Source: a virus. Taken from it: a DNA stretch of 21,873 nucleotides. A program made the translations under genes and the position numbers. The stretch covers positions 1-21,873 of IMG/VR virus record IMGVR_UViG_3300021976_000078, one strand, 5' to 3'. The notes beneath the pieces are model-generated. The model had not been told where the DNA came from and made no database searches. It saw only the letters and a program-made list of their open reading frames with translations. Below, piece by piece: positions 2,761-21,873 of this stretch (the stretch's first letter is position 1; the number at the start of each line of letters is the position of its first letter).

Positions 2761-3230
2761 TGCTCGAGTTCAAAGACGACAACGATGCACATACCTTTGT
2801 CAAGGATGTACTCGAGCACGGCGCAGTAACTGCTTCATCTGCAGTAGTCGAAGAGGACCGTGTCCTGACAACTCTGATCGTACCTACAACCGTTCGAGCT
2901 GTCTGGAAGAAGCCTACGATCTTCTGTACCTGTGAGAGCTTCGAGCGCAAGATGGGATTCACTCGAGGTCGCAAGTATGGTTGGTGGGTACACTCCAAAT
3001 GCAGTAAGCCTTCGAAGCTATGGGCTGCAGGTAACCACTGGTGCTCTGAGTTTGGTATGAACTTGTTACCTCAGAGCGAGATCGCTCCAGAGTACAGGCC
3101 TCCGCACTTCGAGTCGCCGGAGCCTTGGAAGTCACTGGAGCTCCTATGCAACCCATCTGGGGAATGGGCGTTCAAGAATGACCACTATCAGACGACAGTG
3201 GAAATGTCTAGGAAGGAAGAACATGCGTAA
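2745..3230 (+). CDS. Hypothetical protein with Cys-rich centre
   Basis: 161 aa from ATG 2745, with 'aaaggggtgggtacagg' upstream. The N-terminal ~50 residues look like a small alpha/beta unit related to the preceding gene. The middle has F-C-T-C-E followed by R-G-R-K-Y-G-W-W-V-H-S-K-C-S-K-P, a Cys/His/aromatic arrangement suggestive of a zinc-binding or RNA/DNA-binding loop. The C-terminal third is Pro/Glu/Trp-rich and probably partly disordered. It ends inside the signal-peptide region of the next gene (8-nt overlap). Not assigned to a family. Confidence 0.65.
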   Translation: MAIYLMLEFKDDNDAHTFVKDVLEHGAVTASSAVVEEDRVLTTLIVPTTVRAVWKKPTIFCTCESFERKMGFTRGRKYGWWVHSKCSKPSKLWAAGNHWCSEFGMNLLPQSEIAPEYRPPHFESPEPWKSLELLCNPSGEWAFKNDHYQTTVEMSRKEEHA

Positions 3231-3945: not shown

Positions 3946-4106
3946 GCTAGGTACAAGGGCCAAGTCGCAGATGAGAGAAGGCAGCACAGCTATCACGGCT
4001 TGCCGACTGATAGTGTGGGTTTTGCAGCAGAGAGCGACTGGACCCACCTTCCGCCAACCTTCAAGTTCGACCAACCGGTCGGATGACAACGAACAAAGGA
4101 ACTGTA

Positions 4107-5300: not shown

Positions 5301-6583
5301 CTCTAACTATTGACGAAGCGCTCGGACTGATCGAGCTCAAACTTGTACACGAGATTCATACAAGTGAACGCAAGTCATTTCAGGGTTGTCGACGTCGATG
5401 GGATTGGTTGTTCCGTCAGAACTACTACCCCAAGGTGACTGCTAAGTACTTTGAGTTCGGTACTGCCTTCCATGCTGGTATGGAGAAGTACTACGACCCT
5501 AAGACGTGGAAGCTTGATCGCAAGGTCATTGCCAATCTGGCTATCCTTGAATTTGTACACGTTTGTGAAGAGCAGAAGAAGGACATGATCAAGCTCACAC
5601 AATCGATGTACCTCGACTACGATGTCGAAGAGGACTACGCTGAGCGTGTCGAGCTCGGTAAGGGGATGCTGAACTACTTCTTCGACAAGGTTGCTCCCAA
5701 GGAAGATCATGGCTGGAAGCCCGTCAAGGTTGAGATTGCCTTCATGCTTCCCATTCCCAATCCTGAGACCGGCGAAGCGGTAATGTTCTGCAAGTGTAAG
5801 GGCTGTAAGGAACGCTGGTACACGCATCTCACTAAGACCGAGAACCCAGACGCTCAGAAGATCATTTCCACCGAAGGTAACATGGTCGAGCACTGCGACT
5901 ACTGGGGTGAGTGGCAAGGCCTTCCCGTCGTCTATGCTGGTCGCATTGACATGCTGATCCAAGACGAACGCGGACACTACTGGATCGTTGATTGGAAGAC
6001 AGCAGCTCAGATCCGTGAGGATGATGACAGCTTCCTCTACCTAGATGATCAGGTCGGTTCGTATGTCTGGGCTCTACGAAGGCTCGGACTAGATGTGAAA
6101 GGGTTCATCTATCACCAGCAGCGTAAGGCCTTCCCCCAGCCACCGACGCGTAATGCACATCGACGCCTCGGTCGTCTGTTCTCAGTCAATCAAAATCAGG
6201 CAACAAACTATGACGAGTACCTTGCGACTGTGTCCGCTGAGGACAAAGAAGCGTACGAGGAAGGTAAGTATGACGAGTTCCTTGAGTTCCTAAAGAACGA
6301 AGGCATTACCTTCTATGCTCGTCACCAGATCCACAAGACGCACTACGAGGTGGATGAAATTGAACGGAACATCGGCTACGAAGCCCTTGACATGCTCGAC
6401 CCAGGCCTTCGTGTTTATCCATCAAGTGGTCGATTCTCTTGTGGAAGCTGCGCTTTTAGACAGCCTTGCCTCGGTAAGAATGCCGGTGAGGATTATCTTT
6501 ACACCCTTAACACGATGTTCGAGCAAAGGGAACACTACTACCTCAGGAAACGCCCCTCCACCGAGAGTAAGGGTGGCGAGTGA
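5297..6583 (+). CDS. Cas4/AddB-like PD-(D/E)XK nuclease with 4Fe-4S cluster
   Basis: 428 aa from GTG 5297, which overlaps the previous TGA; an in-frame TTG at 5285 would add four residues. The nuclease core shows GRID with D218 and D-W-K-T with D232 and K234, the two acidic residues and lysine of the RecB-family active site, followed by a QxxSYxxA-like helix (DDQVGSYVWALRRLG). C31 near the N-terminus plus C382-x2-C385-x5-C391 near the C-terminus is the cysteine pattern that holds an iron-sulfur cluster in Cas4 and AddB. An additional C-K-C-x2-C insertion near residue 160 may bind zinc. Likely a ssDNA/dsDNA exonuclease preparing ends for recombination with the Sak4-like ATPase downstream. No cas1/cas2 or CRISPR array accompanies it. 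Confidence 0.85.
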   Translation: MTLTIDEALGLIELKLVHEIHTSERKSFQGCRRRWDWLFRQNYYPKVTAKYFEFGTAFHAGMEKYYDPKTWKLDRKVIANLAILEFVHVCEEQKKDMIKLTQSMYLDYDVEEDYAERVELGKGMLNYFFDKVAPKEDHGWKPVKVEIAFMLPIPNPETGEAVMFCKCKGCKERWYTHLTKTENPDAQKIISTEGNMVEHCDYWGEWQGLPVVYAGRIDMLIQDERGHYWIVDWKTAAQIREDDDSFLYLDDQVGSYVWALRRLGLDVKGFIYHQQRKAFPQPPTRNAHRRLGRLFSVNQNQATNYDEYLATVSAEDKEAYEEGKYDEFLEFLKNEGITFYARHQIHKTHYEVDEIERNIGYEALDMLDPGLRVYPSSGRFSCGSCAFRQPCLGKNAGEDYLYTLNTMFEQREHYYLRKRPSTESKGGE

Positions 6584-9185: not shown

Positions 9186-11402
9186 TTGGCGCATTTAGAG
9201 ACGAATGACGAGATTGATCTGAAGCGGATTACCTTCTTCAATCTCCTCTTCGGCAAGGCGTCTGGATACCTATGTCTGGCCTTCCTATCATCCGCTGACA
9301 GGAAGGACTTCCACGAGGAGTACTATGACTACCCAGATCAGCTACCTGCAATACTAGGTGCAATCAATAAGGGTAAGCTGGGCTATAGCGTCTACTTCTG
9401 TCCGCAACTCTTCAAGAGCAAGAAGCGTGTCAAAGAAGAGGTAAAGGCAACACCTTGTGCATGGGCTGACCTCGACAGATGTCACCCTGACTTGATTGAA
9501 GTAGAGCCCTCCATAATTGTAGAGTCCTCTCCAGGAAGGTTTCAGGCTTACTGGGTCTTTGACAGGCAAGTCGATCCTGACGATGCCGAAGACATTAGCA
9601 GACGAATAGCATACAAGCACGCCGAGGATGGCGCCGACCGAAGTGGGTGGGATCTCACACAACTGCTACGCGTACCACTGACACTGAACTACAAGTATGA
9701 TCTACGTGCAGGTAGCGAAGTTCCTCTTGTAGTGATTATCAAAGCATCACGAGACCTGTATCGAATCTCGGACTTTGAAGGCTTCCCTCAAGCCGAAGGA
9801 TATCAGTACATTGATGTCCCACTACCTGACGTATCAGATCTAGGTGACCCCGAAGACTTGCTACAAAGCTTTCGAGGTAAGATCAACCCTTTGATCTGGC
9901 AATTGTACTCGCAGGAGCCGGAAGAGAAGAAGTGGAGTCAAGCCCTGTGGCAACTAGAGATGCTCCTCTTCGAAACAGGGCTCAGTAGGGAACAGGTCTT
10001 CCTGATCGCTAGTGCCTCTGCATGTAACAAGTACGCACGAGATGGTAGATCTGAAAAGCTGTTGTGGAAGGATGTGTGTCGTGCCTTTGCAAAGAACGAA
10101 GCCAACAACAATCTATTCGTTCCACGCGATGAGGATGACCCAGCCCTTCTTACCGAACAGGAAAAGGACTTCCTCAGAGACCTGGAGGATGGCTTCGTTG
10201 AGCGGTACCAACATTGGGCCAAGAGCGTTGGAGATGCTGCCCACCAATATCATCAGGCTGGGGCGTTCATGGCCCTCTCAGCAATTACATCAGGCTCTGT
10301 TAAGCTGCCAACATCGTTCGGTACACTAATTCCAAACCTGTGGTTCATGATACTGGCAGACACCACCTTGACCCGTAAGACCACTGCTATGGACCTAGCA
10401 ATGGATCTAGTTATGGAGATCGATCCAGGTGTTCTTATGGCGACTGACGGTTCTATTGAGGGTCTGCTGTCAGCTCTTGCTGTTAGACCTGGCCGTCCTA
10501 GTGTGTTCCTTCGTGACGAGTTCTCTGGTCTACTGGAGCAGATGACTAAGAAGGACTACATGGCAGGTATGCCTGAGCTCCTCACCAAGTTATACGATGG
10601 TAAGATGCAGAAGAGAATCTTGCGAAAGGAAAGCATTGAGGTACAGAACCCTCGGCTCCTGATCTTTGCCGGAGGTATCAAGAGTAAGATCACGTCGCTA
10701 CTCACATTCGAACAAGTCAGTTCAGGCTTCATGCCGCGGTTCATCTTTATCACAGCTGAGTCCGATCTGACAAAGGTCAAGCCTCTAGGACCTCCGACAG
10801 CAATCGATCTGTCGAATAGGAATGCAATCCTAGAGGAGCTAGCCGACCTGTACAAGCATTACAATGTCTCAGACAAGATGCACATTAGCAAGTTGGAAAC
10901 CACTGTCGAACAGAAGCGTGAGTGGGATGCACAACTAACACCTGATGCATGGGAGCGTTACAATCTATTGGAGTCCCAAATGCTTCAGGCAGGTCTCTCA
11001 CATCAGCGTGCAGATGTTATGACTCCTACGTACGACCGTCTGAGCAAGTCCATTCTCAAAGCTGCAGTGCTACTAGCTGCAGCACGACAGCGAAGTGCTA
11101 ACGTTATAGTAGAGATGCAAGACATCCTTCGTGCTATCCTGTATGGTGAAGAGTGGCGTGCCTTTGCCAAAGAGGTACTGATGCAGGTAGGCAAGGGCGG
11201 ATCGGAACGTCAGTTCGACCTTATCCTGAATGCCATCGTTCGGCAACCTGGTATTGCAAGGTCGCAGTTGATGCAACGCTATCACCTCACGTCAAGAGGT
11301 GCATCAGAGATCTTCACTACACTCGAAGACAGGCAACTTATCATTGTACAGAGGCAAGGTAAGGGTCAATTGTTATTCCCAAACGAAAGGCAACTAGCAT
11401 GA
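9186..11402 (+). CDS. RepB-like primase fused to DUF3987-like helicase
   Basis: 738 aa from TTG 9186, with AGGGGA about 7 nt upstream; no better start is seen. The N-terminal third resembles phage RepB-like (AEP-type) primases: A-D-L-D-R with D95 and D97 as the metal-binding DxD, then S-S-P-G-R-F-Q-A-Y-W at 114-123. The central part resembles DUF3987 phage helicases: a degenerate Walker A (ADTTLTRKTT, 391-400, K398) and a Walker B-like FLRDE with D444 and E445. The last ~70 residues look like a winged helix (ILNAIVRQPGIARSQL onward). Predicted to prime and unwind DNA for replication. It is coupled to queC by ATGA, and the putative origin region lies directly upstream. Confidence 0.8.
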   Translation: MAHLETNDEIDLKRITFFNLLFGKASGYLCLAFLSSADRKDFHEEYYDYPDQLPAILGAINKGKLGYSVYFCPQLFKSKKRVKEEVKATPCAWADLDRCHPDLIEVEPSIIVESSPGRFQAYWVFDRQVDPDDAEDISRRIAYKHAEDGADRSGWDLTQLLRVPLTLNYKYDLRAGSEVPLVVIIKASRDLYRISDFEGFPQAEGYQYIDVPLPDVSDLGDPEDLLQSFRGKINPLIWQLYSQEPEEKKWSQALWQLEMLLFETGLSREQVFLIASASACNKYARDGRSEKLLWKDVCRAFAKNEANNNLFVPRDEDDPALLTEQEKDFLRDLEDGFVERYQHWAKSVGDAAHQYHQAGAFMALSAITSGSVKLPTSFGTLIPNLWFMILADTTLTRKTTAMDLAMDLVMEIDPGVLMATDGSIEGLLSALAVRPGRPSVFLRDEFSGLLEQMTKKDYMAGMPELLTKLYDGKMQKRILRKESIEVQNPRLLIFAGGIKSKITSLLTFEQVSSGFMPRFIFITAESDLTKVKPLGPPTAIDLSNRNAILEELADLYKHYNVSDKMHISKLETTVEQKREWDAQLTPDAWERYNLLESQMLQAGLSHQRADVMTPTYDRLSKSILKAAVLLAAARQRSANVIVEMQDILRAILYGEEWRAFAKEVLMQVGKGGSERQFDLILNAIVRQPGIARSQLMQRYHLTSRGASEIFTTLEDRQLIIVQRQGKGQLLFPNERQLA

Positions 11403-12199
11403 CCGGTACTACCGTAAGCGACGCAAATAGAGTGAAGATGATCGCTGTCTTGAGTGGAGGCCTCGACTCCACTACGATGGTGTACGACTACAAGGGTTCG
11501 GGATTCGACGTAGACTGCATCAGCTTCGACTACGGGCAGAGGCACAGCAAGGAAGTAATCTGTGCACGCGAGACGGCACGGAAGCTGCAGCTGCGTCATG
11601 ACATTGTCAACATCAAGTCCATCACACAGTTCCTGCAAGAGAGTGGTTCGAGCCTCATCACTCCTGGACATGCGATCCCAGAAGGACACTACGCTGAAGA
11701 CAACATGCGTAGTACTGTCGTACCGAATCGCAATATGATCATGCTGTCCATCGCAGGAGGTATTGCAGTAGCTCGCAATGCAGCATTCATCGCTACGGCA
11801 GTACATGCAGGTGATCATGCCATCTACCCTGATTGCCGTCCAGAGTTCTTCAGTCCCTTCAACTATGCCCTGTGGAGGGCGAACGAGGGGTTCGGTGCAT
11901 TCGAGCAGCCCAATCACACCGAGACTGCAGGCCCAGTACGTACTCCGTACATCAACTTGAGCAAGGCGGACATTGCACTGAGCGCACTCGCTCTCGGTGT
12001 TCCTCTTGCTGATACTTGGAGCTGCTACAAGGGTGGAGAGTACCACTGCGGCAAGTGTGGTACTTGTGTAGAGCGTCTCGAAGCAATCGATGAGGCACAG
12101 CGTCGCTGGAACGATGCCGACAACATGCAAACCCCCGCTCCCGAGGATAAGACCGTGTACGAAGATACCGAGTACTGGAAAGAGGTACTAGCAAAGTGA
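11399..12199 (+). CDS. queC: QueC, 7-cyano-7-deazaguanine (preQ0) synthase
   Basis: 266 aa. QueC uses ATP and ammonia to turn 7-carboxy-7-deazaguanine into preQ0, the last step of the pathway from GTP. The N-terminal PP-loop ATP site S19-G-G-L-D-S-T25 is intact, and the zinc site C209, C217, C220, C223 (HCGKCGTCVERL) has the usual spacing. The start at 11399 is supported by the ATGA overlap; an in-frame ATG at 11438 would begin right at the PP-loop strand. The C-terminal ~30 residues (acidic, after the zinc site) extend beyond typical bacterial QueC. It lies about 2.3 kb before queD, separated by small genes, and shares the pathway with queD, queE, folE and dpdA. Confidence 0.95.
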   Translation: MTGTTVSDANRVKMIAVLSGGLDSTTMVYDYKGSGFDVDCISFDYGQRHSKEVICARETARKLQLRHDIVNIKSITQFLQESGSSLITPGHAIPEGHYAEDNMRSTVVPNRNMIMLSIAGGIAVARNAAFIATAVHAGDHAIYPDCRPEFFSPFNYALWRANEGFGAFEQPNHTETAGPVRTPYINLSKADIALSALALGVPLADTWSCYKGGEYHCGKCGTCVERLEAIDEAQRRWNDADNMQTPAPEDKTVYEDTEYWKEVLAK

Positions 12200-12492
12200 A
12201 ACACAGTAATATGACTCCTACCCCTGTACCCAAGATCGCTAAGCAGGCACGGCCCTGGGCACGTGTCTTCCCCGTCGGACCACCTATTGGTATTAGTGAC
12301 AATGCATGTGGGACCGTTGAAGCCATGCACGACGTCGAAAATGTAGATGGAGTTCAGTGTCCCGTCTACCGTGACTACTGGAAACCTTCGGAAGAGCAGC
12401 TGAAGATGTTGAACGAAGGAGGCTTCATCGAGCTTGCACAGTACGCTCCTCAGATGATAATGCATGCTATGACAGTTTGGGAGGACAAGTGA
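12196..12492 (+). CDS. 98-aa hypothetical protein
   Basis: 98 aa from GTG 12196, which overlaps the queC stop (GTGA); ATG 12211 is an alternative start. The N-terminus is Pro/basic-rich. The centre has GVQCPVYRDYWKPSEEQL followed by helices (LKMLNEGGFIELAQYA). The W-x-P-S-x-E-E-x-x-x-L-N-x-G-G pattern is one I associate with small phage proteins of unknown role next to metabolic genes. No catalytic motif is seen. Confidence 0.65.
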   Translation: MKHSNMTPTPVPKIAKQARPWARVFPVGPPIGISDNACGTVEAMHDVENVDGVQCPVYRDYWKPSEEQLKMLNEGGFIELAQYAPQMIMHAMTVWEDK

Positions 12493-12695
12493 GTGCCCTT
12501 CAATATGAATTCGACTTCAAGTTTGAAGAAGCAGACAGTATTGACTCTCTCATCCATCTAGCGATCGGTGCGGCCTCAGTGTGTTGGGAAGACATGAGCA
12601 ATACTGGTGTCTTTCGCGAAGACAGAGCAAGGGCTATTGCCCAACAGCTCAAAGAAGAACTCAAGCGCCGACTGGTACCATTGGAGACTTTGTGA
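12489..12695 (+). CDS. 68-aa hypothetical protein
   Basis: GTG 12489 overlaps the previous TGA (GTGA); TTG 12477 is a poorer upstream option. It is acidic and helical: an N-terminal beta-like YEFDFKFEEA, then SLIHLAIGAASVCWEDM and a basic C-terminal helix (RARAIAQQLKEELKRRL). It is coupled on both sides. Function unknown. Confidence 0.55.
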   Translation: MSALQYEFDFKFEEADSIDSLIHLAIGAASVCWEDMSNTGVFREDRARAIAQQLKEELKRRLVPLETL

Positions 12696-13027
12696 GCATT
12701 ACACTTGATCCGGAGAACCCGTTCGAAGCTGTGTTGATCCAGATGGTCGAGACACACAGAGCGAAGGCGAAGGACTACGCAGGTGATGATCACCCCAATC
12801 AGAACTTTTACGACACTGCCTACCAGCTCGGACTCACTGCCGGCCACTCTGTTGAAACTCTTATCGGAACAAAGCAAGCCCGACTACGTGTTCTCCTACC
12901 ACGCATGTGGCGTAATGGTGACAGCCCTAGCAACGAGGGCATCGATGATACTCTGTTGGATCGAGCCGTCTACTCTGTCATCGCCAAGACCCTCTGGGAA
13001 GAAGGAGGATACACTCTAGATAAGTGA
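12692..13027 (+). CDS. DUF1599/Nmad1-like small protein
   Basis: 111 aa from GTG 12692, overlapping the previous TGA; the longer open frame upstream is a shadow. The helical pattern H-R-A-K-A-K-D-Y-A-G, then K-Q-A-R-L-R-V-L-L, then N-E-G-I-D-D-T-L-L-D-R-A-V-Y resembles DUF1599, called 'nucleotide modification associated domain 1', found beside DNA base-modification genes. These domains are all-alpha and of unproven activity, perhaps handling nucleotides. Its location between queC and the rest of the deazaguanine genes fits. It ends 44 nt before a promoter. Confidence 0.5.
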   Translation: MSITLDPENPFEAVLIQMVETHRAKAKDYAGDDHPNQNFYDTAYQLGLTAGHSVETLIGTKQARLRVLLPRMWRNGDSPSNEGIDDTLLDRAVYSVIAKTLWEEGGYTLDK

Positions 13028-13071
13028 CTACGAAGTTCAAACTTTCATAAAGGAAAATAAGAGATCCCCTA

Positions 13072-13101
13072 TTGAGAAAACCCCTAAGGTTCCTCTATAA
13101 T
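13072..13101 (+). promoter_or_regulatory. Sigma70-type promoter for the modification genes
   Basis: TTGAGA (13072-13077) and TATAAT (13096-13101) with an 18-bp spacer, in the same geometry as the promoter at 5023-5052. It lies in a 112-nt gap in otherwise continuous coding sequence and faces the gene at 13140, which has a strong TAGGAGGAG ribosome binding site. It likely drives the gene block from 13140 through dpdA and the polymerase. CCTAAGG in the spacer is the inverted copy of the palindrome in the first promoter. Confidence 0.75.
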
Positions 13102-13139
13102 TAAAGGAGAGCATAACTTTCAATAGGAGGAGAAGTACA

Positions 13140-13562
13140 ATGGTAAAGTTCATCCCTGTGGATCCCGATGAGATCCCGAACTTCCGAGAGAGCCACCGTG
13201 GTCGTGTCAGCTACCCAATCCTCAAGTCGTTCCTCGAGACTGGCGAAGTACTTGTCAAGCTCGATCGAACTGGCATGCAGCAGGGTCTGCAGAACCTCAA
13301 CAGCTCGCTCAACGCCTACATCAAGAGTCACAACCTTCCGGTCAAGATCTTCAACCGTGGAGGCGAGCTATACATCATGCGTACCGACACCGATGAGAGT
13401 GGCAAGGTGGAAGCTGCCCGAGTCAGTGACTTCAGAGCAGGCATGCTACAGACTGGTGTCGCTCCCGCAGAGCTGAAGGCAAACCTGGATGACATCCCCC
13501 TCGTGGACGAAAGCGAGGTGGATGGACGCTTCCAGGAAGAGAAGGGTCAGGTGACTAAGTAG
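13140..13562 (+). CDS. Promoter-proximal hypothetical protein, possibly regulatory
   Basis: 140 aa from ATG 13140, preceded by TAGGAGGAG at near-ideal spacing and by its own promoter, so it is probably well expressed. Residues 15-90 look like a compact alpha/beta unit (RGRVSYPILKSFLETGE, then a Q/N/S-rich helix, then VKIFNRGGELYIMR). The last 45 residues are acidic and probably flexible. The R-G-R-V-S-Y-P start and the 'GGELYIMRTD' strand recur, from memory, in actinophage proteins of unknown role. A DNA-binding or regulatory role is a guess only. Confidence 0.7.
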   Translation: MVKFIPVDPDEIPNFRESHRGRVSYPILKSFLETGEVLVKLDRTGMQQGLQNLNSSLNAYIKSHNLPVKIFNRGGELYIMRTDTDESGKVEAARVSDFRAGMLQTGVAPAELKANLDDIPLVDESEVDGRFQEEKGQVTK

Positions 13563-14224
13563 TGGCACATGTCCTAGTAGTGTGTGCACGACGTTACAAT
13601 GGACACGAGTTGTGGGTAGCTTTAGGTGTCATGAAGCAGCGAGGTCATACCTTCGAACTGATCTCGACTGACTACGTTATTCAGGACGAAATCACCATGC
13701 GACCGAATCGTATTAAGCGCATCATCGATGAGGTTGATGCTATCGAGATCGAAGAGGGCAAGTTCGACGCATTCATGATCGTGTCAGGGAACATGGCTGA
13801 CACAGAAGCATACTGGAAGCACGAGCGAGTACTGACCTATATCGGAACTGCCAATGCAATGAGTCTACCGATTGCAGCCATCTGTTGTTCAGTACCAACT
13901 ATTAGAGGAGCGGCTGGAGGAAAGAAGGTTTCGTTCTTTCCTCTGGTTCGCTCCCGGAAGCTTCTTAGTGAGGCAGGAGCAGACTTGCAGACAGTCGCTC
14001 TGACGCGAGACAGGAACCTAGTTACAGCGGAACACCAGATGGCCTCACAGATGTGGGCAGACGAGTTCTGCAATCTCATTGAGGGTCTCGAGCCCACGTA
14101 CACCTTTACTGACTCAGGGTACACACCTAAGGGTCGTGAGAGAATGCCCATTCCTGAAGTGGAAGCTCTGCGCATCAAGATGGGACGCGAGCCTATCAAG
14201 ATCAGGAAGGCGAAAGATGTGTAG
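13562..14224 (+). CDS. DJ-1/PfpI-family protein
   Basis: 220 aa from GTG 13562 at a TAGTG junction. The fold pattern of the DJ-1/PfpI superfamily is clear: an N-terminal AHVLVVCARRYNGHEL strand/helix, a central FDAFMIVSGN strand, and the nucleophile elbow A-A-I-C108-C109-S-V-P-T, followed by AGGKKVSFFP and NLVTAEHQMAS. C108 sits where DJ-1 has Cys106 and PfpI its catalytic Cys; the His that follows in PfpI is replaced by Cys. The family includes proteases, deglycases, chaperones and glutamine-amidotransferase-like enzymes. It lies between queC and queD, so a role in 7-deazaguanine chemistry (for example amide chemistry on preQ0) is tempting but unproven. Confidence 0.75.
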   Translation: MAHVLVVCARRYNGHELWVALGVMKQRGHTFELISTDYVIQDEITMRPNRIKRIIDEVDAIEIEEGKFDAFMIVSGNMADTEAYWKHERVLTYIGTANAMSLPIAAICCSVPTIRGAAGGKKVSFFPLVRSRKLLSEAGADLQTVALTRDRNLVTAEHQMASQMWADEFCNLIEGLEPTYTFTDSGYTPKGRERMPIPEVEALRIKMGREPIKIRKAKDV

Positions 14225-14546
14225 TTGTGAAAAACACTGGAATCCAGATGCTACATGTACATGTGACTGTACACACAGCTGGAGTGCAGTTACTGAAGAC
14301 AGTATCATAGGAAAGCACATCTATTCGGGTAAGCTAGACATCACTGCAGAAGGAGTAGAGATCATGGATGAAGAGAACTCGACACGACTAGTCAGGTACG
14401 TCTATGTGCACAATCACAAGTGTTCATTGCAGGGTGAGGAGTTCGTATACAACCCGCCAACAGTAGGAGGCGTCATGTTGATCTCCCAGCCTACTTGTGT
14501 TGAGCATGGCAGTGCACTTGTATTGGTAAGGTCAGAGTCTGTATGA
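14217..14546 (+). CDS. 109-aa protein with Cys-rich N-terminus
   Basis: ATG 14217 overlaps the preceding gene's end by 8 nt; the longer open frame starting at 14079 is a shadow. Residues 1-20 contain C2, C4, C14, C16 and C18 plus two histidines, a dense potential zinc site. The rest is beta-like (VRYVYVHNHKC, GVMLISQP) with two more cysteines. The stop overlaps the queD start (ATGA), so it is translated with queD. No family recognised. Confidence 0.65.
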   Translation: MCSCEKHWNPDATCTCDCTHSWSAVTEDSIIGKHIYSGKLDITAEGVEIMDEENSTRLVRYVYVHNHKCSLQGEEFVYNPPTVGGVMLISQPTCVEHGSALVLVRSESV

Positions 14547-15094
14547 GTGACAACTTCGGGACTGTCTGTTTCGAACACGACATCCAAGTAGCGCACAGAC
14601 TCTTTAAGCAGCCTGGTAAGTGCCAGCAGATTCATGGACACTCGATGCATGTAATACTCTACTTGACAGTTCGCTTCAACGAAGACCCTGACGGGTATGC
14701 GACCGATCAGGAGGGTAACCAACTCGAGTTCGGAGATGTCAAGAAGAGATTCAGAGAGCACCTAGACAGCTTGTACGATCACAGACTACTCCTGAACAAC
14801 GAAGACCCCTGGGCAGGTCCTGTCTGGCACGCTAATAACGATACAAGCACTAAGCTTCCTGGTCTCATAGCCTGTGAGGGAGATCCAAGCACTGAGAACA
14901 TCTGCAAGTGGATTGCAGACGTGTGTGCAAACATGTTCAAGTGTGACGTCATGGTCGATCTGGAAGAGACCAAGACTAACAGTGTTCAACGTAGCACGAC
15001 GTACATCTCTCCTCGAGAAGGCAAGATCAATCTGGAACGTCTAGCAGACAATTCACCACTGAGCATGTGGTCGCCGAGACCAGAGGAGTTGTAA
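14543..15094 (+). CDS. queD: QueD, 6-carboxytetrahydropterin synthase
   Basis: 183 aa. QueD converts dihydroneopterin triphosphate (from FolE) to 6-carboxytetrahydropterin. H18, H31 and H33 (C-Q-Q-I-H-G-H-S) give the zinc site and C27 is the catalytic cysteine, in the same spacing as bacterial QueD. P-S-T-E-N near residue 115 and the E-E-T near 141 are the substrate-binding PTxEN/E motif of the PTPS fold. It is somewhat longer than the ~120-aa bacterial enzyme because of an acidic insertion after the HGHS strand and a C-terminal extension. It is coupled to neighbours by ATGA and TAATG. Confidence 0.93.
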   Translation: MSDNFGTVCFEHDIQVAHRLFKQPGKCQQIHGHSMHVILYLTVRFNEDPDGYATDQEGNQLEFGDVKKRFREHLDSLYDHRLLLNNEDPWAGPVWHANNDTSTKLPGLIACEGDPSTENICKWIADVCANMFKCDVMVDLEETKTNSVQRSTTYISPREGKINLERLADNSPLSMWSPRPEEL

Positions 15095-15324
15095 TGTCAT
15101 TGACATATGATGAGCAAGAGGAAGCCAAGAAACGTCTCGAGCTGGACAGGCGTGTATTCGCCCTCAAGTTCGCCGTTGAACAAGTACGATTCAGTATGAA
15201 TAAGGATGACAAACCTCCCATCTACGAAGAGACTCTCGAGTCTGCACGGGAGTACTACAAGTTCCTGAATGGTGACACTAGTGACCCTGACGGTGCATTA
15301 GGTGATGTTGACAATGGTTCTTAG
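15094..15324 (+). CDS. 76-aa helical hypothetical protein
   Basis: ATG 15094 at a TAATG junction with queD. The protein is almost entirely charged helix (EEAKKRLELDRRVFALKFA), followed by a second helix around LESAREYYKFL and an acidic Gly/Asp tail. The tail overlaps the start of queE by 11 nt. Possibly a small coiled-coil partner; function unknown. Confidence 0.6.
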   Translation: MSLTYDEQEEAKKRLELDRRVFALKFAVEQVRFSMNKDDKPPIYEETLESAREYYKFLNGDTSDPDGALGDVDNGS

Positions 15325-16021
15325 AGTCAGTGAACACTACGTCAGTACACAGGGCGAAGGTCCAAGAGTAGGTCTGCCTACACAATTCCTCCGCTTCGGC
15401 GGATGTAACCTTCGTTGTCCAGGATGGCCATGTGATACACAACATGCCATCGATCCGAAGTATCGCAATGAGTGGACCAAACTCGAATACACAGACATCA
15501 TCCAGAGAGCCATCGAGCTTCGTGACGAGACAGGTGCTACCAACGTCTGCTTCACTGGAGGAGAACCTTTCCTGCAGCCTAATGATGACCTGATGCTCCT
15601 ATTCAAGAACCTAGAGCGTATGGGGTTCACTGTCGAATGTTTTAGCAACGGAACGCTTCTATATCCTCACTGGGCTACTGACATTCGATTCGTAGTAGAC
15701 TGGAAGCTGAACGGTTCAGGTGAGAAGGATATCAACGTACAGACACGTTGGAAGAACCTATTCACACTCGCTACTTCAGACTACGAGCAAGCAGTTAAGT
15801 TCGTACTGAATGACGAGAGTGACCTCGACGACGCAGAGAGAATCTATAGCCACTTCGCACGAATGGAACTACAGTGCCTCCAAGTGTTCTACGGTCGTGT
15901 CTGGCAAAGCAAGTGGACTGATGCAGAGATGATCGAAGCAGTCCTCAAGCGTAAGCTCCCATGGAGGCTAAACATTCAAGTGCACAACTACATTTGGGCA
16001 CCTCACGAGAGGGCACGTTAA
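15314..16021 (+). CDS. queE: QueE, 7-carboxy-7-deazaguanine synthase (radical SAM)
   Basis: 235 aa from ATG 15314 (AGGTG about 9 nt upstream); in-frame starts at 15302 and 15305 are possible. QueE makes 7-carboxy-7-deazaguanine from 6-carboxytetrahydropterin using S-adenosylmethionine and a 4Fe-4S cluster. The N-terminus S-T-Q-G-E-G-P matches the QueE substrate-binding signature, and the cluster motif is C31-N-L-R-C35-P-G-W-P-C40-D-T, i.e. CX3CX4C, two residues longer than the classical CX3CX2C. F-T-G-G-E-P near residue 83 is the SAM-binding motif. The C-terminal QVHNYIWAP is typical of QueE (HxxxW). Coupled to neighbours. Confidence 0.93.
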   Translation: MVLRVSEHYVSTQGEGPRVGLPTQFLRFGGCNLRCPGWPCDTQHAIDPKYRNEWTKLEYTDIIQRAIELRDETGATNVCFTGGEPFLQPNDDLMLLFKNLERMGFTVECFSNGTLLYPHWATDIRFVVDWKLNGSGEKDINVQTRWKNLFTLATSDYEQAVKFVLNDESDLDDAERIYSHFARMELQCLQVFYGRVWQSKWTDAEMIEAVLKRKLPWRLNIQVHNYIWAPHERAR

Positions 16022-16275
16022 TGGGTGCACATCGATTACGTAGCATGGCTACAGATGAAGAGTACGACGCATTCCACTTTGAAGGTCCCGGTGACTTTGA
16101 AGGGCTCGAGAAGTTCGTCGGTGGTGATGCAGAGATCAGAGGTAATAAGATCATCGTGGCTGGTCCTGAAGGAAGGCTCGAGCTGGATCTCAATGGATGG
16201 GTAGTAAATATTGGACCTAGTAAGTTCTCAACTTCTAGCGACGTGGCAACGAAGTTGCTATTCAAGGAGATCTGA
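16021..16275 (+). CDS. 84-aa hypothetical protein
   Basis: ATG 16021 at a TAATG junction with queE; the open frame from 15961 is only the shadow extension. The protein looks beta-rich with Gly turns (F-E-G-P-G-D-F, I-R-G-N-K-I-I-V-A-G-P-E-G-R, N-G-W-V-V-N-I-G-P), ending in a short helix. The G-N-K-I-I-V and G-W-V-V-N-I-G-P pattern is reminiscent of small phage beta-barrel proteins of unknown role. Sandwiched between queE and folE. Confidence 0.6.
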   Translation: MGAHRLRSMATDEEYDAFHFEGPGDFEGLEKFVGGDAEIRGNKIIVAGPEGRLELDLNGWVVNIGPSKFSTSSDVATKLLFKEI

Positions 16276-17132
16276 TGGGTAGCGATTGGGACCATCGCAA
16301 ACGTCAGACTGGAAACGACAGCTTTCATGTAGACCCTGCCGAAGCTTATGATGGGGAGATCAAACCAATCATGAGTCCCTACGAGTCAGCACCAAACTTC
16401 ATGGTGCAGTCACTAACAGGACAGCATGTACATCCTGACAATGATGGTATGTACACCATACCCGAAACTGGTGTCTACCAATACGAAGACGGAGTGTTCA
16501 AGTTGATCTCCAATTCGAATGAAGCGCACCCCATCGGAGTTGATGTCGAAGGACATCTCGTTGGACACACAACCAACGAAGACCCTGCGGTTGAGTATGC
16601 AGAGCTTCTCCTTTCCTCGATGAAAACGTGGAACAGGACGCCAGAAGACCACAGGGCTGAGACTCCTCGCCGGTTCGTGAGTATGTTGCATGAGATGACG
16701 ACACCCGATCCGGAGTTCAAGTTTACGACGTTTGATGATGACACTGCGGACGAGATGATCACTCTGGGACCGATCCCGTTCTACACTCTGTGTGCACATC
16801 ATGCTGTTCCATTCTTCGGCAACACATGGATCGGATACGTACCGAACGGACGCCTTGCAGGTCTGAGTAAGTTCCCTCGCACGGTGAAGCACTTGGCAAA
16901 GGGCTTCTGGGTTCAGGAGACTCTGACGATCGCAATTGCCGACTTCCTTGAGGACAAGCTCGACCCTCATGGTGTTGCAGTAGTCATGAAAGCAGAACAC
17001 ATGTGCATGGCAATGAGGGGCGTAGCACAGCCAGGAGTCATCACGACTACCTCTGCAATGCGAGGCGTATTTGCAGACCACTCGAAAACTGCCAAGGCTG
17101 AGTTCATGCAGGGCATCAACGGGAAGCACTAA
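16275..17132 (+). CDS. folE: FolE-type GTP cyclohydrolase I with N-terminal extension
   Basis: 285 aa from ATG 16275 at a TGATG junction, with AAGGAG at 16264-16269. The enzyme opens GTP to dihydroneopterin triphosphate, the first step of the pathway. C173-x2-H176 (YTLCAHHAVPFFG) and C244 (EHMCMAMRG) form the zinc site with the same 71-residue spacing as in the E. coli enzyme (Cys110, His113, Cys181); H175 and H242 are the active-site histidines. G-L-S-K-F-P-R is also present. The catalytic core starts near residue 100; in front lies an extra region with low-complexity and beta-like segments (IPETGVYQYEDGVFKLI), so the protein is about 63 residues longer at the N-terminus than E. coli FolE. 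Confidence 0.94.
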   Translation: MGSDWDHRKRQTGNDSFHVDPAEAYDGEIKPIMSPYESAPNFMVQSLTGQHVHPDNDGMYTIPETGVYQYEDGVFKLISNSNEAHPIGVDVEGHLVGHTTNEDPAVEYAELLLSSMKTWNRTPEDHRAETPRRFVSMLHEMTTPDPEFKFTTFDDDTADEMITLGPIPFYTLCAHHAVPFFGNTWIGYVPNGRLAGLSKFPRTVKHLAKGFWVQETLTIAIADFLEDKLDPHGVAVVMKAEHMCMAMRGVAQPGVITTTSAMRGVFADHSKTAKAEFMQGINGKH

Positions 17133-17142
17133 GGAGATGACA

Positions 17143-17556
17143 ATGCCGCCTAGTAACAAGAAGCCTAGCACTACAGGCATGCTGTCCATTCAGTGCAGAG
17201 AAGACGCTGTCAAGTGGTTTGGTGACAGCGGTGTAGCAGAAGGCTTTCCTGCACTAATGCACCATTCGCTGGCCTTGGCAGGAGAGGTCGGGGAGTTCTG
17301 CAACATCGTGAAGAAGATCGATCGAGGCTCGTTGAATCTTGGCGATGCTATCGTACGGAAAGACCTTGCCTTCGAATTGACGGACGTCTACATCTACACC
17401 CTGAACCTTGCGGGTCTCATGGGTGTTGACCTAGAAGAGCTGTACAAGCTGAAGCGTGCAGAGAATGACCAAAGATTTATGGTACAACGTCGTCTCCGGG
17501 AAGCGCGTGAGAGCTCTAAGCAGAACGGAGGTCGTGCTAGTGACAGCTCTGGATGA
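17143..17556 (+). CDS. MazG-like nucleotide pyrophosphohydrolase
   Basis: 138 aa from ATG 17143, chosen because AAGGAG at 17131-17136 is 6 nt upstream; ATG 17137 overlaps that ribosome binding site too closely. E48-x2-E51 (LAGEVGEF) and E78-x2-D81 (FELTDVYIY) form the EExxE...ExxD-like magnesium site of all-alpha MazG/dCTPase pyrophosphatases, with the conserved K-K-I-x-R-G between them. The C-terminal ~35 residues are basic and disordered. It would hydrolyse an (d)NTP to the monophosphate, helping control nucleotide pools during replication or base modification. It follows folE directly. Confidence 0.82.
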   Translation: MPPSNKKPSTTGMLSIQCREDAVKWFGDSGVAEGFPALMHHSLALAGEVGEFCNIVKKIDRGSLNLGDAIVRKDLAFELTDVYIYTLNLAGLMGVDLEELYKLKRAENDQRFMVQRRLREARESSKQNGGRASDSSG

Positions 17557-17899
17557 TGCACGAGAACTTAGAGAGGCATCTCGTGAGGCACATGAAGCCA
17601 TCCAGGACTTGAGAGTAGCAATGAAAGACGGCAAGCAGCTGCTTCAGGAAATACGTACAGCCGCTAAGGGTGCAGTGGACGAGCAAGTAGAAGCCGCTAT
17701 TGAAGCTGCTGTCATGCGCTTGAAGGAAGCAGTTGAAGCTGCCATTGAGCCAGCAACTGCAGAAGTCTTCAAACGTTTCGATACGATCACAGACACGTTA
17801 ATGGGTGAAGATAGAAGAAGCAGACGTCAAGGCAAACCATCCGTTCCCGAAATGATCGACGAGAGAATGCATCCACACCGAGGAGACTACAATGGCTGA
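17540..17899 (+). CDS. Coiled-coil hypothetical protein
   Basis: 119 aa from GTG 17540, with GGAGG at 17527-17531; it overlaps the MazG-like gene by 17 nt. Residues 5-95 are strongly helical with Ala/Glu/Lys/Arg heptad-like spacing (ALDDARELREASREAHEAI, then EAAIEAAVMRLKEAVEAAI), so a coiled coil or helical bundle. The tail is basic then acidic (RRSRRQGK...). It overlaps the next gene by 8 nt. No catalytic motif; possibly a structural or oligomerising partner. Confidence 0.65.
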   Translation: MTALDDARELREASREAHEAIQDLRVAMKDGKQLLQEIRTAAKGAVDEQVEAAIEAAVMRLKEAVEAAIEPATAEVFKRFDTITDTLMGEDRRSRRQGKPSVPEMIDERMHPHRGDYNG

Positions 17900-18236
17900 T
17901 GAAGACAAGGCCGCATGGAGTGCTACTGACGGTGCTGCTATGCTGGAGATGATCAAACACTTCAGTGACGAGTTCGCTTCTCTTCGTCAAGAACGTCACA
18001 AGGCTGGAGCGGCTGAGTACGGTGCCTTCACCTTCCTCGGCAACGACGTCGTTCGCATGATGGCTGAGGAGCTTGCCGACACAGCTAACTACTGTGAGAT
18101 GCAGTTCATCAAGCTCATGATCCTGAACAAGTACTTGACTGAGCACGTCGCAAACGAGATTGCTGAAGGCGACGAGATCACCATCGGACTACAAGCATTC
18201 AAGGGGACAAAGGAAGGGTGGAATCGTGGACGATGA
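17892..18236 (+). CDS. All-alpha protein, possibly MazG-like
   Basis: 114 aa from ATG 17892 with GAGGAG upstream. Helices dominate; E-Y-G-A-F-T-F at residues 42-48 and A-E-E-L-A-D-T-A-N-Y at 58-67 (E59, E60, D63) resemble the second metal-binding helix of MazG-like phage pyrophosphohydrolases, though the first ExxE helix is not obvious. It could be a divergent nucleotide hydrolase or a catalytically dead relative. The stop overlaps the next small gene's ATG (ATGA). Confidence 0.6.
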   Translation: MADEDKAAWSATDGAAMLEMIKHFSDEFASLRQERHKAGAAEYGAFTFLGNDVVRMMAEELADTANYCEMQFIKLMILNKYLTEHVANEIAEGDEITIGLQAFKGTKEGWNRGR

Positions 18237-18349
18237 CTCAGATGAAAAGGGTCTCAAGAGTGGTCAGCCGTCATCGTTTGGAGGTGACAGTAACCGTTCT
18301 ACTGATCGGGATCATCTACGGTCTGTATACAATCCTGAGCTTGGGGTAA
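18233..18349 (+). CDS. 38-aa single-span membrane microprotein
   Basis: ATG 18233 overlaps the previous TGA (ATGA) and has AAAGGAAGGG about 14 nt upstream. The product is a basic N-terminus (T-Q-M-K-R-V-S-R-V-V-S-R-H-R) followed by one hydrophobic helix (LEVTVTVLLIGIIYGLYTIL), the classic layout of a small inner-membrane protein. The competing reading is a 101-aa frame from GTG 18226 that runs through to 18531; its N-terminal half is polar and looks like out-of-frame sequence, so I prefer two short genes. Confidence 0.55.
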   Translation: MTQMKRVSRVVSRHRLEVTVTVLLIGIIYGLYTILSLG

Positions 18350-18357
18350 GTACAGGT

Positions 18358-18531
18358 ATGAACTTCCAGAACAAGATCGAAGACGACCTGTATGAGAAGC
18401 CTGAGACACCTACTCCTGAAGATCCATGGAGCAAGTGGATCGGAAGGGGTTGCTGGGCAGCTGTAGGTCTGACAGTTGTCAACTTCCTCGCAATCTTGTG
18501 CTACCAAGGATGGCAGTGGGTGAGACCATAA
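18358..18531 (+). CDS. 57-aa single-span membrane protein
   Basis: ATG 18358 lies 8 nt after the preceding microprotein stop; the ribosome binding site (acaggt) is weak, so translation may depend on coupling. Residues 1-30 are acidic and Pro-rich (KPETPTPEDP), and 33-52 form a hydrophobic span (CWAAVGLTVVNFLAILCYQG) ending in Trp-rich membrane-interface residues. It may be the C-terminal part of a 101-aa protein from GTG 18226, the alternative discussed for the previous gene. The stop overlaps the next ATG (TAATG). Confidence 0.6.
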   Translation: MNFQNKIEDDLYEKPETPTPEDPWSKWIGRGCWAAVGLTVVNFLAILCYQGWQWVRP

Positions 18532-18620
18532 TGACTTGGTCCTACGCAAAGACATACACGACCTGGCCTCGTGCGATGAACTGGAACTACGCACAGACCT
18601 TCACTAAGACGGTGTACTAA
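18531..18620 (+). CDS. 29-aa aromatic microprotein with internal repeat
   Basis: ATG 18531 and TAA 18618-18620 both sit in TAATG junctions with the flanking genes, so this exactly fills the space between two coupled genes. The product is rich in Trp, Tyr and Thr and consists of two related halves: W-S-Y-A-K-T-Y-T and W-N-Y-A-Q-T-F-T. No known family; could be membrane-interface or protein-binding. The main doubt is its tiny size. Confidence 0.5.
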   Translation: MTWSYAKTYTTWPRAMNWNYAQTFTKTVY

Positions 18621-18838
18621 TGCAACTAGCAGAGGCACTGAAGACACTTGATCTGGAACTCGAGATCGATGACAATGCAATGGTCACAGATGTGTTGGTG
18701 ATCGCTAAGGTCCAACGACTAGATGGTGCAACGTCCGTAGTACACTGTGCAACTGAGTGTACTGACTGGGTCACAGCGATGGGACTGGTGACAGCTGCTA
18801 AGAGGGCAGTAACTACAATGGAAGGTTACAGCGAATGA
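18620..18838 (+). CDS. 72-aa hypothetical protein
   Basis: ATG 18620 at a TAATG junction; the stop overlaps the dpdA start (ATGA). It appears alpha/beta: an N-terminal helix (LAEALKTLDLEL), then MVTDVLVIAKVQ and a Ser/Val/Cys strand, then a C-terminal helix (WVTAMGLVTAAKRAV). No motif recognised. It is co-translated with dpdA, so it could be an accessory factor, but there is no direct sign of this. Confidence 0.6.
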   Translation: MQLAEALKTLDLELEIDDNAMVTDVLVIAKVQRLDGATSVVHCATECTDWVTAMGLVTAAKRAVTTMEGYSE

Positions 18839-19605
18839 AATTGGCCTTGATCCCACCCATCAGCTGGATCAGTACGACTAGCTGTACGGACTACCAGCTC
18901 TTGCTACCCCAGCTACTCATGTACCCCAAGTATGTCGAGCACTACACCAGACTTGCCAAGTCGGAGGATCAGCACCTCATCCTAGACAATGGTGCGAATG
19001 AAGGTGCACAGGTCAATTCTACATCACTAGTCCGCATGGCAGACGAGGTAGGCGTCGATGAAGTAGTCGTACCTGATGTCCTGCTTGACGATGTCGCGAC
19101 ACTCTCCAGAATGGCGACATTCTTTGACAGAGTCAAAGACAAGGATGTAGGGAACCTCAAGTACATGGGCGTCGCACAAGGTAGTACAGAAGAGGCTGTA
19201 CATAGCTGCATCAGCACCATGATGTCTGAGTTTGGTAGCAAGCTTCACTCCATTGCACTGCCACGTCATTTGCTGGAGACCCTAGAGACTGTAATGGCTC
19301 GTCTCACACTAGCAGAGTACATTAGGGACCATGCGCGTGAGGGTATCGCAATCCACTGTCTAGGCGCATCTCCTCTTTGGCCTAAAGAGTTACTTGCTCT
19401 AGCGAAACAAGGTATTGTACGAGGCATGGATACTTCGATGCCTTACAACTTCGCCTACTACGGTTGGCACGTCGAAGACTCAATCCATCTTGGTCATGTC
19501 ACACGTCCTGCTCGTTACTTCAATCATAGGTCAATCATGTTCAAGAACGATTGCCTCCACTCCAACATTGGCACCATGAAGCGGTGGGCAAATGGAACAG
19601 AGTGA
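18835..19605 (+). CDS. dpdA: DpdA, TGT-like DNA-guanine transglycosylase
   Basis: 256 aa from ATG 18835 (ATGA junction). DpdA is the tRNA-guanine transglycosylase homologue that exchanges guanine in DNA for preQ0 (or a derivative). The TIM-barrel signature is visible: I-L-D51-N-G near the first barrel strands, V-V-V-P-D-V-L-L-D-D, V-A-Q-G-S (VQGG in TGT), H-C-L-G-A-S, and M-D199-T-S-M-P, corresponding to the nucleophilic Asp in TGT's D-x-x-x-P-T. The C-x-C-x2-C-type zinc site of bacterial TGT is absent, as expected for the short phage form. Together with FolE, QueD, QueE and QueC it completes a DNA-modification pathway. It overlaps the polymerase start by 14 nt. Confidence 0.88.
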   Translation: MKLALIPPISWISTTSCTDYQLLLPQLLMYPKYVEHYTRLAKSEDQHLILDNGANEGAQVNSTSLVRMADEVGVDEVVVPDVLLDDVATLSRMATFFDRVKDKDVGNLKYMGVAQGSTEEAVHSCISTMMSEFGSKLHSIALPRHLLETLETVMARLTLAEYIRDHAREGIAIHCLGASPLWPKELLALAKQGIVRGMDTSMPYNFAYYGWHVEDSIHLGHVTRPARYFNHRSIMFKNDCLHSNIGTMKRWANGTE

Positions 19606-21873
19606 TCCTGAACCGATACAGCGAAAGCATCCTGACGCTGAATGTGAGAAGTGTCCGCTCGCAAAGGTTGGTAAGTTCGTTCCAACGTTCGGGCCGCGCA
19701 AAGCAAAGCTTGCATTCGTTGGCGAGGCGCCAGGCAAGTTTGAAGCTCGTCAAGGGATACCGTTCTCTGGTCCTTCTGGTAAGCTCCTGAACATCGTGAT
19801 GAACCATCACGGGATAGAAAGGAAAGACGTTGTCCTCGCGAATGCGTGCTCGTGTCGTCCGCCAGACAATGCAACTCCTCCACCTGCAGCCATCGTGGCA
19901 TGTCGTCCAAGGCTCGTGGGAGAGCTCCAAGAACGTGGAGTTGACACGGTCGTCGCGTTGGGGAACTCCGCGTCACAGTCGCTTCTCGGCAAGACTGGAG
20001 TCACCAAACTACGAGTCGGCCCCGGTAAGCAAAGTAGTTATTTGCCTGGAGTTAGAATCATCCCGACCCTCCATCCTGCAGCGGCTCTTAGGCAAGCTGA
20101 TCACTTTCCTTTTATCGTCACTGACGTTGGAAAGGTGGTAAGCCCTCATGTCGTATGGATTGAACCTAAGTACTACGTCGCTAACACTGTCGATGAAGCC
20201 CTCCAAGTCATTAGCGAACTGGAGAAGCGAGAAGGGCCAATTGTCACTGATATTGAAGTCGACATTGAAAAGGACACCTCTCACGATCACCCAAATCACT
20301 ATGGTATGCTCTGTGTTGGAATCGCTTACGCACGGGACCGAGCGGTCATACTTGCTGAAGGTGTCATGGCATCGGAAGAAGTTCGCGATGCGCTTAGAAA
20401 GCTCTTCCGAGCCAAGCGACTTGTTGGACAGAACCTCAAGTTCGACCTCGCAGGACTATATCCGTTGCTCGGACCCCTTGAGGGTTGGTTCGACACAATG
20501 CTCGCCAGCTACGCCTTCGACGAGCGACCTCGCATCCACTCCCTCGACTTCCAAGGAATCGAGTACCTCGGCACCCCCGACTGGAAGCACGAGATCGAAA
20601 AGTACAAAGTCACAGGACAAGGCTACGGAGTCATCCCCAGAGACATCCTCTACAAGTACTGCGCCTACGACTGCTGCGTCACCTTCCAGCTCAAAGACTA
20701 CTACGAAGACAAGTTCCAAGACGACATAGACAACCCACCGACGGTCCTAGTACCAGGTGTACCGTACAAGCCACTTCGATACATCCATGACAAGATGGTT
20801 GAGTGGAGCAACGAGCTCATGTACTTGGAGCTCAATGGGATCTACATTGACAAGGAACATCTCAACAAGCTAACAGAACTGTTCACGGATCAGATAGCTA
20901 CCTTGCGTATGGAGATCTGTGAGATCGTCGGATACGATATCAATCCTAACAGTTGGCAACAGGTACAAAAATACTGGCAGTCGAAAGGTATCAACTCGGC
21001 CTCGACAGATGCCGATCACTGTGAGTTCATCCTGAAGGCTGTGCACCCAGATGGGAAGCACCCTGACCAGGAGGTGTACCATTTCATCACCAAGCTACTC
21101 GAGCATCGTGCTGTCGGAAAGCAGTACGGGACTTATGTTAAAGGCATTCGTAAACGTCTATACGGGGGACGAGTGTTCTCCTCCTTCCGTCTCCATGGAA
21201 CTACAACTGGAAGGCTCGCCTCACGGAATCCTAACCTGCAGAACATCCCAAGAGACTCGAACATTCGCAATCTCTTCATCCCGGCTAAACCGGAACGCGT
21301 CTTTGTCGAAGCCGACTTCGCTCAGGCTGAATTGCGGGTGCTCAGTTATCTTGCAAGAGATTCGTACTTCCGCAACATCTTCCTTACAGGCCGTGACCTC
21401 TTTGATGAACTTACGCCGATCCTTTATCCGGGGGCAGTCAAGCCCATTGAAGTCTTTAGTACTCCGGAAGAGTTCGCGGCGTGGAAAGAACTCCGCATCC
21501 GAGTGAAGGCGTTCGTGTACGGTCTGTCTTATGGACGTACCGAGTTCTCCATTGCACCTGAGTTTGGCATTCCACTGTCAGAAGCTAAGATGCTGAAGAC
21601 GAACTTCTTTGGAGTCATCCCAGAGGTTGTAGACTTCCAGAAGACAGTCAAGAAGATCGTCTTTGCGGGACACCCTCTGATCACTCCATTTGGCAGGCGT
21701 CGCAGGTTCCACCTCATCACGAATGACAACCTCAGAGAGGTAGAGAACGAAGCACTTGCGTTCTTGCCTCAGAGTACTTCATCAGATATCACCCTAGGAG
21801 CGATGTCAATGGCACGTCGTGACCTAAGGGGCAAGGGATGGATTCGAAACATCGTGCATGACTCTATCCTAGC
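19592..21873 (+). CDS. polA: UDG-DNA polymerase I fusion (3' end off window)
   Basis: 760 codons without a stop, cut by the window edge. Residues ~15-170 are a family-4 uracil-DNA glycosylase: C18, C21, C88, C104 for the 4Fe-4S cluster, G-E-A-P-G at 44-48, F-S-G-P-S-G, and H161-P-A. A DnaQ-like 3'-5' exonuclease follows: D220-I-E222, N-L-K-F-D285, and Y356-x3-D360. The polymerase shows motif A with D575 (DFAQAELR), motif B R-I-R-V-K639-A-F-V-Y643-G-L-S-Y647-G, and motif C H756-D757-S. The residue at the E. coli Phe762 position is Tyr643. No 5'-3' exonuclease domain. An N-terminal UDG-like domain on a phage PolA is known from SPO1 polymerase. Replicative polymerase of this phage. Confidence 0.93.
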   Translation, partial: MEQSDPEPIQRKHPDAECEKCPLAKVGKFVPTFGPRKAKLAFVGEAPGKFEARQGIPFSGPSGKLLNIVMNHHGIERKDVVLANACSCRPPDNATPPPAAIVACRPRLVGELQERGVDTVVALGNSASQSLLGKTGVTKLRVGPGKQSSYLPGVRIIPTLHPAAALRQADHFPFIVTDVGKVVSPHVVWIEPKYYVANTVDEALQVISELEKREGPIVTDIEVDIEKDTSHDHPNHYGMLCVGIAYARDRAVILAEGVMASEEVRDALRKLFRAKRLVGQNLKFDLAGLYPLLGPLEGWFDTMLASYAFDERPRIHSLDFQGIEYLGTPDWKHEIEKYKVTGQGYGVIPRDILYKYCAYDCCVTFQLKDYYEDKFQDDIDNPPTVLVPGVPYKPLRYIHDKMVEWSNELMYLELNGIYIDKEHLNKLTELFTDQIATLRMEICEIVGYDINPNSWQQVQKYWQSKGINSASTDADHCEFILKAVHPDGKHPDQEVYHFITKLLEHRAVGKQYGTYVKGIRKRLYGGRVFSSFRLHGTTTGRLASRNPNLQNIPRDSNIRNLFIPAKPERVFVEADFAQAELRVLSYLARDSYFRNIFLTGRDLFDELTPILYPGAVKPIEVFSTPEEFAAWKELRIRVKAFVYGLSYGRTEFSIAPEFGIPLSEAKMLKTNFFGVIPEVVDFQKTVKKIVFAGHPLITPFGRRRRFHLITNDNLREVENEALAFLPQSTSSDITLGAMSMARRDLRGKGWIRNIVHDSIL

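Follow-up and report, generated by a model that had tools for sequence, protein, structure and literature searches.

Phages are known that replace the guanine of their DNA by 7-deazaguanine bases, and the way in which they finish these bases is only partly known. DNA of the Mycobacterium phage Rosebush is almost pure dPreQ0, the deoxynucleoside of preQ0 (PMC6884629), and in the Campylobacter phage CP220 (Firehammervirus) 100% of deoxyguanosine (dG) is reported to be replaced by dADG, the deoxynucleoside of the amide ADG (PMC8306585). In the bacterial dpd island dpdC, whose domain is DUF6884, is required for dADG (PMC11888242). Here we describe a virus fragment of 21,873 bases (IMG/VR record IMGVR_UViG_3300021976_000078), hereafter called the window; the record contains nothing of the genome beyond this fragment. 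It carries a predicted preQ0 pathway, a DpdA-type transglycosylase and, between QueC and QueD, a unit made up of a DJ-1/PfpI-like protein and an orphan partner, g21. The core pathway is already known, and the new part is this unit, which had not been linked to guanine replacement; no link of PfpI to phage 7-deazaguanine modification was found among the papers searched.

The genes lie in a replication block on the + strand, to which all coordinates of the block refer. It starts with genes for a PD-(D/E)XK nuclease, a Sak4-like AAA protein, a DUF669 protein and a primase, and continues with QueC, small genes, g21, the DJ-1/PfpI-like gene, QueD, QueE, FolE, a MazG-like gene, g31, the transglycosylase and a fusion of uracil-DNA-glycosylase (UDG) and PolA. 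Overlaps of a few bases are found at primase/QueC, g21/DJ-1 and transglycosylase/PolA, as expected from an operon organisation. FolE, a GTP cyclohydrolase I (16275..17132; Pfam GTP_cyclohydroI 6.9e-47, aa 124-281), should convert GTP to dihydroneopterin triphosphate, from which QueD, a 6-carboxytetrahydropterin synthase (14543..15094; Pfam PTPS 1.3e-19, PHROG 2389 7.7e-27), would form carboxytetrahydropterin, and QueE, a 7-carboxy-7-deazaguanine synthase (about 15314..16021; Radical_SAM 4.8e-8, TIGR04349 5.6e-32, PHROG 2076 (QueE) 4.8e-38), would turn this into 7-carboxy-7-deazaguanine. The last step to preQ0 is expected from QueC, 7-cyano-7-deazaguanine synthase (266 aa, 11399..12199; Pfam QueC 7.4e-57, aa 13-233; TIGR00364 176.6 bits against a cut-off of 150.3), which has the motifs SGGLDST and HCGKCGTC and whose start overlaps the primase stop (ATGA).

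A preliminary description of the window had named these four enzymes and a DpdA, and all five were recovered at the same place on the + strand with no frameshifts, through curated profiles and, for DpdA, through profile and structure. It had also reported the absence of QueF, ArcS and a QueC with a glutamine amidotransferase domain, and our scans of the fragment agree; nor was a second tRNA-guanine transglycosylase (TGT) or QueA seen in the window. Among 50 relative records QueF exceeded the cut-off in none, and the matches below the cut-off that were checked were FolE. The further statement that all key residues are intact holds for the aspartates of DpdA described below, but QueE deviates, with the cluster motif CX3CX4C (CNLRCPGWPC) in place of the usual radical-SAM CX3CX2C. 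Since CX3CX4C is the majority form in 69 relatives (46/69, against 19/69 with CX3CX2C and 4/69 in which the third Cys is preceded by a longer insert, CNLRCPGWGYGTLPDGTVVPGC), the deviation is not taken as damage.

The motif is variable inside one syntenic lineage, which includes contigs L059, L076, L090, L091 and the window. In another subgroup (L024, L026, L029, L033, L035 and L041, with L022, L023 and L030) QueE is absent from the interval between QueD and FolE. In those contigs whose flank reaches far enough, a QueE match is present some 6 kb upstream of QueC, and the gene has therefore moved. FolE of the window has about 120 extra residues at its N terminus (16275-16640) that lack a Pfam match, and the protein is much shorter in several relatives.

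The transglycosylase (256 aa, 18835..19605) receives no family label from Pfam, NCBIfam or the named PHROG families. With the window protein tblastn gave no match at 1e-3 in 50,697 phage records, whereas the homologue from contig L009 did reach CP220, immuto, phiST and BSP7, and a profile of 8 DpdAs found only a chance match in PDB. Its nearest relatives come from uncultivated phages, with 80 contigs kept of 156 candidates. An alignment of 68 homologues shows ten invariant residues, among them D51, D81 and D199, and these three align with catalytic and recognition positions of TGTs when compared by hhalign with the DpdA of JenP2 and E. coli TGT (E 0.08 and 0.13, weak statistics with sensible motifs). 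Because of these weak statistics the structure was used for the assignment. The AlphaFold2 model from 68 sequences has a pLDDT of 96.2 and a pTM of 0.92, and while Foldseek by itself placed other TIM barrels at the top of PDB, TGTs came to the top after VIA realignment. All of the 50 best solved structures listed after this alignment are TGTs, with Z 16.7-17.1 over about 230 residues (17.1 to 1iq8), and among viral predicted structures the model is similar to a protein of Cellulophaga phage phiST (M4SLA5, TM 0.83). The zinc site CxCxxC...H of the tRNA enzymes is absent; the protein has isolated cysteines only, and no CxC.

A profile of the window family matches BSP7 gp57 (3e-44), Youna2 (2e-42), immuto (1.8e-32) and CPT_0056 of CP220 (8.5e-27), and misses the DpdA of Coffee, a phage of the Rosebush species (0.24), the DpdA of the 9g-like JenP2 (0.34) and E. 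coli TGT (0.33). Profile and model therefore assign the protein as a DpdA of the CP220/immuto/BSP7/phiST clade, and not of the 9g/Rosebush type. The CP220/immuto/phiST clade is presumably the one later named DpdA3. From the clade and the position in the replication operon, the enzyme is expected to act on the DNA of the phage and to put a 7-deazaguanine base in the place of guanine. The window thus encodes, as judged from profiles and the model, preQ0 synthesis together with a TGT-type exchange enzyme, and the earlier reading as a GTP-to-preQ0 pathway with a DNA-type transglycosylase is upheld.

The analogy to Rosebush that had been drawn does not extend to the key enzyme. Like the window, Coffee has FolE, QueD, QueE, QueC and a TGT-type enzyme, but its DpdA has 385 residues, and the order of the genes and their position, beside the terminase, are different. 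Coffee (L136) also has a DUF6884 gene at 6038-6508, on the opposite strand near the preQ0 cluster. Among isolates the arrangement of the window is seen in the Bacillus and Weizmannia phages BSP7 and Youna2, which share the order primase-QueC-QueD-QueE-FolE-DpdA-PolA, with DpdA adjoining PolA; their whole genomes are without DJ-1 or DUF6884 genes, DpdA is annotated only as hypothetical, and the BSP7 pathway proteins are 25-41% identical to those of the window. The Flavobacterium phage immuto has a pyrophosphohydrolase gene just 5' of its DpdA, which is deposited as 'DNA guanine transglycosylase', but it lacks a DJ-1 gene, and its DpdA is flanked by QueF and by a formyltransferase-like gene. CP220 is a large phage (177 kb) with another layout.

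Between QueC and QueD the window has g21 (140 aa, 13140..13562) and the DJ-1/PfpI-fold protein (220 aa, 13562..14224; Pfam DJ-1_PfpI 1.5e-10), a candidate tailoring enzyme whose start codon shares one base with the stop codon of g21. The two genes are adjacent at all 40 loci checked, and relatives of g21 were not found in Pfam or PDB. The DJ-1 model, with a pLDDT of 91, can be superposed on PfpI proteins of solved structure over about 165 residues at 1.6-2.0 A, with best Z values of 25.6 to 4hcj, 24.7 to Pseudomonas aeruginosa PfpI (8r3n) and 23.6 to Pyrococcus horikoshii protease I (1g2i), and no viral predicted structure matched it under 1e-3. Like 8r3n and 1g2i it has the nucleophilic Cys and a buried Glu; Glu16 is kept in 34/35 phage sequences (one is cut before this residue) and Cys108 in 34/35 (L061 has lost it). 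The His that follows the nucleophilic Cys in PfpI, essential there for methylglyoxalase activity (PMC11987610), is in contrast replaced by Cys109 in 33/35. In addition D42, N77, D80-T81-E82, W85 and E157 are near-invariant and not shared with the PfpI proteins, and the phage DJ-1 proteins thus form a family of their own. The copy in L061 (5130-5876), which lacks Cys108 and other family residues, is perhaps inactive.

The unit was located in 34 viral contigs in addition to L061 and the window. Relatives of the DJ-1 protein were absent from a collection of genomes from 84,980 species at the sensitivity of a pattern-based search, and tblastn with DJ-1 (1e-3) and g21 (1e-2) gave no match in the 50,697 phage records. 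Of the DJ-1 records of at least 26.5 kb, 19/20 carry a DpdA of the window type, and in the remaining one FolE is truncated at the edge of the record.

Dozens of viral contigs keep the order primase-QueC-[slot]-QueD-QueE-FolE-MazG-g31-DpdA-PolA, far beyond what chance would give. At loci where both flanks of the slot were seen, it holds g21 and DJ-1 in 10 cases, a DUF6884 gene with a partner of about 300 residues in 5 and neither in 47, and the gap between QueC and QueD is about 1.5 kb with either cassette and 256 bp (median) when empty. The exchange can be followed between close relatives: for L059 and L091, which have DJ-1, and L076, which has the DUF6884 pair, all pairings show primases that are 70-74% and DpdAs that are 61-68% identical, and the slot differs. 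L091 and L076 have 74% identity in the primase and 68% in DpdA, and are thus no more distant than L091 and L059, both with DJ-1, at 72% and 61%. DUF6884, the domain of DpdC, thus fills in sister phages the same slot as the window DJ-1, to which it is unrelated in sequence, and none of the window proteins scanned matched it. A DUF6884 gene was found in 7/38 records without DJ-1 and in 0/35 with DJ-1, counts uncorrected for kinship and fragment length. In the first 50 records alone this exclusivity is not significant, with about 1.7 overlaps expected, and with 23 further DJ-1 records it becomes suggestive at about 0.008 by a hand calculation uncorrected for kinship. From this comparison a tailoring role for the slot is plausible.

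The partner of DUF6884 (for instance L057:3554-4429 and L078:63-971) has 10 copies, among them a second one in L078; it is without a family match and has a DPP motif of the kind found in methyltransferases. The clusters c15, c20 and c24-c26 were tried as extra slot genes and dropped, being out-of-frame open reading frames over neighbouring genes.

We propose that the region forms a module for the modification of phage DNA inside the replication operon, and that the g21 and DJ-1/PfpI unit would act on preQ0, either free or already in DNA. With lower confidence, Cys108, together with Glu16, might attack the nitrile carbon of preQ0, since hydration of isonitriles is known from a different branch of the DJ-1 superfamily (PMC3160306). 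The finished base would then be another than preQ0, with the amide ADG as first guess, followed by the amidine G+ or a new derivative, and the modified DNA should resist host restriction enzymes. Closely related DpdAs accompany either cassette, which suggests that DpdA inserts preQ0 and that the cassette acts afterwards; a tolerant DpdA is equally possible. That the phage genome is modified by a 7-deazaguanine is very probable, and the unit probably belongs to the pathway; modification of the DNA, membership of the unit and the clade of the transglycosylase still make a likely statement when taken jointly. The chance that the unit tailors the base is a little short of even, and dADG as the specific product is doubtful. 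Somewhat more tentative than the tailoring role is the wider proposal that DJ-1/PfpI and g21 make up a new, phage-only system for converting preQ0, in the form of a swappable cassette, beside the tailoring types that use amidotransferases or reductases and DpdC.

Several observations speak against a tailoring role. Neither a DUF6884 nor a DJ-1 gene was found in CP220, although its dG is reported to be fully replaced by dADG. Coffee carries DUF6884 although Rosebush DNA is almost pure dPreQ0 (PMC6884629), and we therefore rejected DUF6884 as a constant sign of dADG. The best PADLOC match of the phage DUF6884 protein is PDC-M57A (2.8e-18) and not DpdC, which is matched weakly (2e-4). Most DpdA phages of the lineage are without DJ-1, which must therefore be dispensable for the core pathway, many DJ-1 phages have the pair at least 5 kb away from the Que genes, and the L061 copy is without Cys108. 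The counts behind the exclusivity of the cassettes carry the lack of correction mentioned above, and an unseen gene outside the fragment could convert preQ0.

The best of the other explanations is that the DNA contains plain dPreQ0 and that DJ-1 and g21 are an unrelated pair, serving host takeover, stress or proteolysis, that is found in the operon by chance. FolE, QueD, QueE, QueC and DpdA suffice for dPreQ0 in Rosebush and CAjan (PMC6884629), the slot is empty in about half of the relatives, and stress proteins are frequent in the DJ-1 family (PMC3160306). We regard it as rather unlikely, as the unit goes together with this DpdA in 19/20 sizeable records and is swapped with the DUF6884 pair at one site, and as the best-conserved DJ-1 residues are unlike those of PfpI proteins. 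The preliminary description had taken dPreQ0 as the simplest product and had overlooked the pair at 13140-14224. Since the pair is tied to the pathway and exchanged, the product may be dADG, dG+, another derivative or dPreQ0, and plain dPreQ0 is unsafe as the default.

Glycated nucleotides have been suggested as substrates of the DJ-1 family, and the unit might instead serve protection or repair, by removing glyoxal-type adducts from guanine or 7-deazaguanine or by dealing with a reactive compound that the pathway gives off. Methylglyoxalases are found among the relatives of PfpI (PMC11987610), and the nucleophilic Cys and the Glu are retained, but the His that the PfpI methylglyoxalase requires is the residue replaced in the phage family, and this explanation is improbable. 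Least likely by far is that the pathway supplies queuosine for host tRNA or makes a small-molecule 7-deazaguanine, and does not serve phage DNA, since, although FolE, QueD, QueE and QueC are queuosine enzymes and the TGT fold is common to both, QueF, QueA and a tRNA-type TGT were not seen in the window, QueF was not detected over the cut-off in the relatives, and the transglycosylase, of the CP220 clade, lies in a replication operon beside DNA polymerase.

If the tailoring role is correct, the exchange of a single slot lets related phages alter their DNA chemistry. The exchange of cassettes suggests a route by which modification chemistry evolves, which would fit an arms race with restriction enzymes, and the phage-only pair, which accompanies this clade of DpdA and changes places with a DpdC-like pair at one site, is a concrete gene to test.

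The remaining genes of the block are conserved to a varying degree. Directly 5' of QueC is the primase/helicase-like protein (9186..11402; RepB_primase 9e-6, DUF3987 2e-15). A small protein at 12692..13027 has a weak match to phrog_1485 (0.0012) and homologues at 8 loci of the same module. In the gap directly 5' of g21 there is a promoter-like site, TTGAGA-18-TATAAT (13072..13101), with 11/12 consensus positions, which is only suggestive of a promoter, as the total of such sites in the scan is no higher than in shuffled sequences. The MazG-like nucleotide pyrophosphohydrolase (17140..17556; PHROG 229 1.7e-8; cluster at 80 loci) and the small protein g31 (17892..18236; cluster at 76 loci, without a family match) are located immediately 5' of DpdA at about 76-80 loci, the place also taken by the immuto pyrophosphohydrolase, and may shape the nucleotide pool while guanine is replaced. 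Downstream of DpdA, and adjoining it at most loci, a family-A DNA polymerase with an N-terminal UDG domain (19592..21873; Pfam UDG 4.5e-27, DNA_pol_A 6.5e-50) extends beyond the last base of the record. Genes for predicted secreted proteins or lipoproteins, some of them actinobacterial-looking, are found in the window at 1740-2234, 3226-3945 and 4083-4967 and in L051 at 1337-2002, and give a hint of an actinobacterial host.

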